Both the position numbers and the translations under genes were made by a program. Shown here in pieces: positions 21,989 through 44,913 of a stretch of DNA of 64,000 nucleotides (positions are counted from its first letter, which is position 1; every line of letters starts with the position of its first letter). The stretch comes from Sporichthya brevicatena (GTDB lineage Bacteria; Actinomycetota; Actinomycetes; Sporichthyales; Sporichthyaceae), in NCBI RefSeq assembly GCF_039525035.1, contig NZ_BAAAHE010000007.1, positions 186,001 through 250,000 on the forward strand. Reading direction: 5' to 3'. The notes below the pieces were generated by a model that made no database searches, was not told the origin of the DNA, and was given only the letters and a program-made list of their open reading frames with translations.

Positions 21989-22630
21989 GTGCGTGCGCGG
22001 CGGGTGGCCCTCGGAACCGGTGTCTGCTTCGCCGTCATCGCAGTACTGGTTCGTACCGAGTTCTCGCCCCTGCTGGATCTGGACCGGGACGTCACCCGAT
22101 CGGCTGTGGACCTCGCCCGCGACCACGAGACCTACCGGGACGCGATGAAGACCGCGACGTGGTTGCTGCACTCCCAGCTGGTCCTGCTCTACGCCGCCGT
22201 CGTCGCGCTCGGGCTCGCGGACGCGCGCCGCCCGGCCGCCGCTGTGTGGCTCGCCGCGGTGGTCGGTGTCGGCACGGTGGTCAACCCCGTGCTCAAGGTG
22301 CTGTTCGACCGTGAGCGCCCGGTCGTGCCCGAGCCGGTCGACACGTTCTCCGGCTTGAGCTTTCCGTCCGGCCACGCCGCCAGCGCGGGCCTGATCTGCG
22401 CGGCCCTCGCGGTGCTGCTGTGGCCCCGGCCGGGCCGGGTCGGCCACGTCGCACTGGTCACCGGCGTCGCGGTGATCCCGCTGCTCTCGGGCTGGACGCG
22501 CCTGACCCTCGGCGCCCACTTCCTGTCCGACGTGGTCGCCGGGGTGCTGTGGTCCGTCGCCTGGGTCGCCGCGTGGCAGCCCGCCCTCCCCGCCCTCGAG
22601 CGCCGCCTCGCCCCTCCCCGGTGGAGATGA
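21989..22630 (+). CDS. PAP2-family membrane phosphatase
   Basis: The 213-residue protein has about five membrane helices and the three-part PAP2 signature: 'KVLFDRERP', 'SFPSGHAAS' and 'TRLTLGAHFLSDVVAG'. It dephosphorylates a lipid phosphate such as phosphatidate or undecaprenyl diphosphate at the outer face of the membrane. GTG 21989 fits the leaderless -10. The stop codon lies inside the first unit of the 18-bp tandem repeat, so the array has replaced the normal downstream sequence. Confidence 0.9.
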   Translation: MRARRVALGTGVCFAVIAVLVRTEFSPLLDLDRDVTRSAVDLARDHETYRDAMKTATWLLHSQLVLLYAAVVALGLADARRPAAAVWLAAVVGVGTVVNPVLKVLFDRERPVVPEPVDTFSGLSFPSGHAASAGLICAALAVLLWPRPGRVGHVALVTGVAVIPLLSGWTRLTLGAHFLSDVVAGVLWSVAWVAAWQPALPALERRLAPPRWR

Positions 22631-22735
22631 CATCTGCACAAGAGATGACATCTGCACAAGAGATGACATCTGCACTGGAGATGACATCTGCACTGGAGAT
22701 GACATCTGCACTGGAGATGACATCTCTTGTGCAGG
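22624..22735. repeat. 18-bp tandem array ending in an inverted unit
   Basis: Five perfect head-to-tail units: two GAGATGACATCTGCACAA then three GAGATGACATCTGCACTG, with no spacers. A sixth, GAGATGACATCTC, continues with TTGTGCAGG. That end is the reverse complement of the start of the array, so it can fold as a 14-bp stem CTGCACAAGAGATG/CATCTCTTGTGCAG. The same palindrome occurs once at 876-906. The rest of the gap to 22863 holds no supported gene. Confidence 0.85.
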
Positions 22736-22863
22736 CGGGTCGGGGGTGCGCCGGCCCGGGTGGGACCCGGGCTGAAGAGGTCTTTGGTCCCTGGTCCGAG
22801 GGCCCGGGGGTGAGCACAGTGTTGGGGATGGGCGGACTTGTCCGACCGGGCGGAGGGGAAGCC

Positions 22864-23571
22864 GTGACGGTCGCGAATCTTCGGCGTCAATCGGGCGACG
22901 TGCCGCGACCGCGGTCGGTCGGGGACGTCATGACGCGGGAGGTCGTCTCGGTGGGCCCGCATGCGGGTTACACCGAGATCCGGGCCGCGATGCTCAAACA
23001 CGACGTGGGTGGACTGCCCGTCGTCGGCGCCGACGGGGTGTTGCTCGGGATGGTGACCGAGGCCGACCTCATCGCGAAGGAGGCCTACCGGGCGTCCGGC
23101 CGCGGCCGCCGGATGTTCGACCGGTTCCGCCGGCGCGAGACGAACTGGACCGCGAAGGCCGCGGGCCGCACCGCTGCGGATCTGATGACCCCCCAGGTCG
23201 AGGCGGTGGCGCCCAGCGACGACCTGCGCGCCGTCGCCCGCCGGATGCTGCAGCGCCGGCTCAAACGCATGCCCGTCCTCGACGGGGGACGGGTGGTCGG
23301 CATCGTCGCGCGCCAGGACCTGCTGCGCCCGTTCGAGCGCAGTGACGCCGACCTCGCCGTCGACGTCGAGGCGGCGCTCGCCGACCCGGACCTGCCGACC
23401 GAGCTCGCGGTGCTCTGCCAGGTCACCGACGGCGTGGTCCACCTGTGGGGCTCGGTGCGCGTGCCGGCCGACCTGCCGCCGGTGCTCACCGCCGTCGCGC
23501 GGATCCCGGGCGTCGTCGCGGTCGACGCGCAGCTGTTCCCGCGGGACCCGAACCCGGGCGGCCGGCTGTAG
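22864..23571 (+). CDS. CBS-pair and BON domain protein
   Basis: The 235-residue protein has two CBS motifs, 'VGDVMTREVVSVGPHAGY' to 'EADLI' (about 17-77) and 'AADLMTPQVEAVAPSDDL' to 'RQDLL' (about 101-158), then a BON domain (about 165-225, 'DGVVHLWGSV'). CBS pairs bind adenine nucleotides; BON domains bind membranes or phospholipids. The combination is common in actinobacterial dormancy or universal-stress regulons, and a sensing role is inferred. GGAGGGGA lies just before GTG 22864. It converges on the DUF2461 gene with only 3 bases between. Confidence 0.9.
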   Translation: MTVANLRRQSGDVPRPRSVGDVMTREVVSVGPHAGYTEIRAAMLKHDVGGLPVVGADGVLLGMVTEADLIAKEAYRASGRGRRMFDRFRRRETNWTAKAAGRTAADLMTPQVEAVAPSDDLRAVARRMLQRRLKRMPVLDGGRVVGIVARQDLLRPFERSDADLAVDVEAALADPDLPTELAVLCQVTDGVVHLWGSVRVPADLPPVLTAVARIPGVVAVDAQLFPRDPNPGGRL

Positions 23572-44828: not shown

Positions 44829-44893
44829 GGGTGACACCCCTTTTGGCGCCAGAAAGGGTGACACCCCTTACTGCGCAGTAAGGGGTGTCACCC
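44829..44893. terminator. palindromic repeat, copy B, with an extra half unit
   Basis: The 38 bases 44856-44893 are identical to the core of the palindrome at 19555-19592 (GGGTGACACCCCTTACTGC and its complement). An additional GGGTGACACCC at 44829-44839 precedes it. It lies between the convergent phosphatase and MarR genes and can end transcription from both sides. Confidence 0.8.
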
Positions 44894-44913
44894 CTTGTTC
44901 AACGAGGGAGGCG

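Follow-up and report, generated by a model that had tools for sequence, protein, structure and literature searches.

What is an 18-bp tandem repeat, built from overlapping palindromes, doing at the very end of a bacterial gene? The question arises at a locus in the 64,000-nucleotide stretch of DNA analysed here (the window), where a PAP2 superfamily gene (21989-22630, + strand) runs into the repeat (22622-22734, no strand assigned) and is followed by a gene for a CBS-domain protein (22930-23571, + strand). The start of the latter comes from our home-made gene caller; its reading frame is already open from 22420 in the ORF list.

Structure of the array

Tandem Repeats Finder confirms the array at 22622-22725 (period 18, 5.8 copies, 95% matches) with a score of 180, the highest among its 10 rows in the window. 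Five spacerless units at 22624-22735 had originally been predicted. The array itself holds, but there are six cores AGATGACATCT instead of five, at exact 18-bp steps (22625, 22643, 22661, 22679, 22697 and 22715), and the end is corrected to 22734. As predicted, the core is palindromic: each copy is itself a palindrome, and the last one is contained in a 29-bp palindrome, CTGCACTGGAGATGACATCTCTTGTGCAG (22706-22734, no strand assigned), the only complete one of the array. Because each core is already palindromic, what was described as an inverted copy closing the array is simply the right arm of the final palindrome, left complete. Elsewhere in the array, the last bases of an arm (GTGC-AG) also serve as the first bases of the core that follows (AG-ATG). 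On the opposite strand the sequence reads (AGATGTCATCTCCAGTGC)n, where the arm also occurs in CTT variants.

Two further points of the original prediction were reproduced. The stop codon of the PAP2 gene (TGA, 22628-22630, + strand) lies inside the first unit, in the reading frame AGA TGA CAT, and both RNA and DNA folds yield the 14-bp stem, pairing CTGCACAAGAGATG with CATCTCTTGTGCAG (z -7.2 and -7.6, respectively, compared to shuffles). A second copy of the same family, referred to as family 1, is found in the window as a single 31-bp palindrome, CCTGCATTGGAGATGTCATCTCTGGTGCAGG, at 876-906 (no strand assigned).

A high-copy family within one genus

The window belongs to contig C7 of genome G000; G001 and G002 denote a second and third species of the genus. 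The unit turns out to recur throughout the genome, in about 200 copies. In G000 there are 209 matches to AGATGWCATCT and 170 to GAGATGWCATCTC, with 77 occurrences of the latter in G001 and 1 in G002, and the reversed control gives 0 for both. No copy of GAGATGWCATCTC is seen in G003 and G004 (another genus of the same family) and a single one across the remaining 55 genomes of that search. The tandem pair is seen in G000 only, with none in the 395 further genomes of a 396-genome sample of the phylum (G001 lies outside this sample). Among the genomes searched, the family is restricted to one genus. Within the window the core has 14 matches at up to one mismatch against 0.29 expected, a number reached in 0 of 100 shuffles; this excess and the empty reversed control rule out a chance repeat. 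When k-mers were scanned over 0.79 Mb of G000, family 1 came out on top and a second palindromic family emerged.

Phage and plasmid collections gave no match with the array, and six viral contigs with the 17-mer carry one copy each and no array. The pattern TGCANNN-core-NNNTGCA is absent from a genome contig collection that may omit records of G000 or its close kin, and among the titles returned by an exact-sequence literature search none concerns a bacterial genome repeat.

A near-perfect short tandem repeat on a draft contig might be a local minisatellite or an assembly artefact, and the original prediction named assembly error as what would overturn it. Since two genomes, one of them assembled as a single 5.5-Mb contig, carry the family at numerous sites, assembly error is excluded as the main explanation; the array is also present at the orthologous place in G001. 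We give a minisatellite or artefact a negligible probability and regard this account as refuted in general, the precise number of copies at the window array resting on the draft assembly.

The 55 places in G001 are dispersed along the chromosome (chi-square p 0.31 over 11 bins; the circular Kuiper test is marginal at p 0.03), and on these grounds we rejected the idea that they mark a chromosomal position, for instance as a signal confined to the terminus.

Anatomy of units and arrays

In the fetched sequence we find 50 arrays with 118 units in 1.63 Mb of G000 and 44 arrays with 71 units in 1.12 Mb of G001, each array having 1-6 units. Tandem spacing is quantised: 43 of 68 spacings in G000 and 13 of 27 in G001 are 36 or 37 bp, and the rest are mostly 17-18 or 27-30 bp. 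The 18-bp form of the window, where neighbouring palindromes overlap, is a minority. As for the unit, it reads C-N-N-TGGAGATGWCATCTCCA-N-N-G (23 bp, two-fold symmetry about the A/T), with CNNTGGAGATGWCATCTCCANNG as the consensus of 188 units. From position -5 to +5, ten of the 11 positions have one base (A or T at the centre) in at least 186 of these units and the other in 184, a constancy that is partly by construction, since units were chosen for their resemblance to the core. The arms are of two types, GCACTG...CAGTGC or TTGTGC on the one hand and GGTGG...CCACC on the other. Mixed arms (TG with TT) are common and leave the stem broken near the core.

In the 14 arrays having at least two spacings of 35-38 bp, spacers are 76% alike within an array, 53% between arrays and 46% when shuffled. 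With an average of 76% likeness, the spacers are not the unrelated, unique ones of a CRISPR array. Cores of these 14 arrays differ by 2.2% within an array (12 positions), against 24% for their spacers. The palindrome would have multiplied through tandem duplication. Judged from its sequence, the 18-bp array may have grown via repeated duplication of half a palindrome, so that the end of an arm (GTGCAG) passes into the start of the next core (AGATG).

Placement relative to genes

Arrays sit immediately behind stop codons, and gaps between convergent genes are favoured. Based on gene positions from a home-made codon-score caller rather than a published one, the 94 arrays divide into 26 in predicted genes, 37 in co-directional, 24 in convergent and 4 in divergent gaps, with 3 unclassified (65 of the 91 classifiable arrays are intergenic). 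Intergenic length alone predicts 35.4 co-directional, 9.2 convergent and 20.4 divergent cases (p 8e-9; p 3e-6 for G000 alone). A distance of at most 24 nt to a gene 3' end is seen in 51 of 85 cases against 4 of 45 for a 5' end. Arrays are depleted in coding sequence, which holds 14 of the 48 classified G000 arrays where 91% is coding. Inside genes, units are read in only two frames, as G-D-D/V-I-S (29 units) or E-M-T/S-S (11 units), and never in the third, which contains TGA; judged by eye, these copies seem to lie within linker-like stretches.

Given this placement, it might be argued that the arrays act as RNA hairpins at mRNA 3' ends, either as U-less terminators or as stability or processing elements. 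The strong folding of the window array would agree with such a role, as would the lone G002 copy, a nested palindrome between convergent reading frames. Nonetheless, no terminator-like site (a G+C stem followed by a T run) is called in 22400-23100, more than a quarter of the arrays are inside predicted genes, and the common mixed arms disrupt the stem near a core whose sequence nevertheless stays fixed, beyond what pairing alone would ask for. We consider the hairpin explanation improbable. Rfam families gave no match above the gathering score in the window.

Comparison between two species

Where a 400-kb stretch could be aligned, the identity between G000 and G001 is 92%. At the window locus G000 has 6 units of the 18-bp type and G001 has 3 of the 37-bp type, and another 18-bp array has 2 against 3 units. 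Two array-free alleles retain only a CCACTG stub, which suggests loss. Of the functions originally proposed, an expandable 3' structure is partly borne out by these changes in unit number at orthologous places and by the 3'-end preference; for a recombination hot spot we see the gain and loss of units and nothing beyond it.

The same locus differs in another respect: in G001 (C1, 1070195-1071301) the interval from PAP2 to the CBS gene also contains a 368-aa gene and a 54-aa reading frame, both missing at the G000 array. A tblastn search of the G002 locus (L058) recovered neither of them.

A core is present at the same place in G001 for 7 of the 10 arrays on contig C7 of G000, and in G000 for 22 of the 25 usable G001 rows. 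Retention from G000 to G001 is fairly estimated only for C7, as palindromes or DUF222 genes guided the choice of the G001 stretches outside 868-1268 kb, and the G000 contigs were selected partly for palindromes. The 25 rows remain after dropping one of 26 resolved rows (898375), paired with a probable paralogue on C6. The 3 rows without a G000 core, two of which come from one region, indicate that no single site is indispensable. Since most places are common to two species that are about 92% identical, the copies are old enough for their arms to have diverged, with the cores unchanged.

The core is conserved above controls. All 12 core positions are kept in 28 of 38 orthologous units against 27 of 127 control 13-mers, which were taken 12 nt past stops without palindromes and mapped by BLAST, with unmapped ones scored as non-conserved; if only the 80 that mapped gap-free are considered, 34% are conserved. 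The 38 aligned units, drawn from 23 of the 26 rows (898375 was skipped and two exceeded the 700-bp length limit), show an identity of 95.4% in the core (12 positions), 76% at the centre, 73-74% in the arms at 3-8 bp and 90% in the flanks, a profile that is somewhat flattering because the alignment tends to anchor on cores. Of nine changes at the centre, seven exchange A and T, and G takes part in the other two.

The same tendency is observed inside genes. The core codons GGA and GAT are rare (5.3% and 5.8% of their families) and elsewhere are kept between the two species only 40% and 33% of the time, whereas 7 of 8 aligned frame-1 units keep GAT by the count of one of us. The persistence of these rare codons in genes points to selection on DNA, and the DNA sequence rather than the peptide seems to be constrained.

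Our best reading is that of a genus-specific, tandem-expanding, putative protein-binding palindromic element. We hold it to be somewhat probable that the array belongs to a REP-like, high-copy family confined to the genus, and that a dedicated dimeric DNA-binding protein, docking where genes end, would keep its 12 fixed positions constant. By analogy, this inferred protein might use the palindromes as gyrase and IHF use the BIMEs of E. coli, to which both bind according to PMC2817692. A binding array also appears the best of the three functions originally suggested, with a core that is constant between species while arms and spacers change. We identified no binding protein for the palindrome. 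Against docking, the centre-to-centre distances (18, 27-30 and 36-37) do not keep to one helical phase. Furthermore, the 26 of 94 arrays in predicted genes are not explained by a pure 3'-end role, and homogenisation between copies could be an alternative cause of the likeness of the cores.

The latter possibility is part of a different explanation, in which some enzyme amplifies a selfish, REP-like repeat that does nothing for the host, and the cores are alike as they are young or homogenised. Units of 25-29 bp are indeed near-identical amid unrelated flanks, the TT-arm subtype lies almost always on one side of the centre A, as if one lineage had spread, and the depletion of arrays in coding sequence fits as well. 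REP families are, moreover, considered miniature mobile elements (PMC2817692, PMC3733652). The retention of 22 of 25 rows between the two species, with diverged arms and undiverged cores, argues against it, as does the lack of a Y1 or RAYT transposase among our matches (see below). A selfish repeat is possible, though on the unlikely side.

Relation to known repeat systems

In PMC3733652 and PMC2817692, REPs are described as palindromes of 20-40 bp, often in more than 100 copies, single or clustered, with a preference for convergent and co-directional gaps and in some cases within genes. Our family resembles REP/BIME elements in size, copy number (170-209), clustering, its mostly intergenic location, the preference for convergent gaps and the presence of intragenic members. 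It differs in that its units follow one another as direct tandems with a step of 36/37 or 18 bp, where REPs form mainly head-head or tail-tail pairs, and in its symmetric, odd-centred core. Unlike GTAG and CGTC REPs, the family carries neither tetranucleotide at one end; the 188-unit table is free of such a tag up to 20 bp from the centre. CGTC REPs likewise have no dedicated transposase, though they do carry the CGTC tag (PMC3733652). The Y1 (IS200/IS605-type) transposase profile PF01797 matched in 0 of 5 genomes, against 5 of 14 controls, and a RAYT query from Bacteroidota had 0 matches in G000-G002. A RAYT-driven REP in G000 was rejected as far as PF01797 and this one query reach. With neither a RAYT/Y1 transposase nor a GTAG/CGTC tag found, the family works in a REP/BIME-like manner and does not show two of the marks of membership. 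A further mark of REP/BIME elements is the binding of gyrase, IHF or Pol I. RAYT transposases are the usual explanation for REP-like repeats, yet the roughly 200 copies here come without a detectable one. Confined to one genus among the genomes searched, and with a core conserved as DNA even in genes, the family offers a compact system on how repeats spread and are maintained.

The identical 11-bp AGATGWCATCT occurs, often clustered, in two Bacteroidota, Rudanella paleaurantiibacter (97 copies) and a Chitinophagaceae MAG (45 copies). Among four tandem stretches that had seemed due to chance, those in these two are real arrays. The clusters flank REP-associated transposase genes (L050, 338-1114; L206), with pairs often about 20 bp apart; the L050 transposase matches NF047646 at E 2e-11, below the cut-off of that model. 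A Spirochaetes MAG has only 3 copies of the 11-mer. As there are many REP families in nature, the core shared with the Bacteroidota repeats is probably a coincidence.

Rickettsia palindromic elements are palindromes inside genes, in frame (PMC3733652). Compared by description only, our family is similar in having in-frame palindromes in genes and different in its units of 17-29 bp and its mainly intergenic location.

Family 2, AAAGGGTGACACCCCTTACTGCGCAGTAAGGGGTGTCACCCTTT, has 219 core matches in G000, 188 in G001 and 1 in G002. It is present in the same genomes as family 1 and shares its odd-centred TGWCA core, but adds flanking A/T runs that give it the look of a two-way terminator. The window contains one copy at 44829-44896, bracketed by A/T runs. 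At about 94643 of contig C14 of G000 (in L109), where G001 has family 1, we see a third palindromic family (GCGGGATGACGTCCCGC).

Association with DUF222 genes

DUF222, the '13E12 repeat' that is often combined with HNH, has 31 matches in G001 and 16 in G000. Of the G001 places 20 were tested; 7 gave a resolvable G000 counterpart, and at one (5453010) the gene is common to both. At the other six the gene is absent from G000, and four of these places (961282, 1086476, 4341868 and 897523) carry family-1 palindromes instead. The remaining two have family-2 cores (3385887) or neither family (2893783). The p of about 2e-5 for this swap applies to 4 of 5 places and not to 4 of 6, having been computed before 2893783 was counted as lacking the gene.

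The palindromes might accordingly be putative landing or recognition sites of DUF222 genes that swap with them, and several other DUF222 genes have a family-1 palindrome within 700 bp. Still, 3' intergenic gaps may tolerate any insertion, one of the two other gene-less places has family-2 palindromes, and DUF222 genes are also present in genomes nearly or wholly without palindromes (G002-G004). We rate such landing sites as doubtful. A closely related version has a similarly low probability: the palindrome would be the recognition site of a dedicated protein, possibly that of DUF222, with genes inserting at or exchanging with 3'-end palindromes. Dispersal would then be RAYT-free, a fixed 23-bp operator-like word being copied and amplified rather than a mobile gene. 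The swap supplies a specific candidate protein for the palindrome.

At about 4341517-4343300 of G001 contig C1 (L147), a class-A DUF222 gene lies between near-copies of a long palindrome, GCGTCCGACGATGTGG...CGGACGC.
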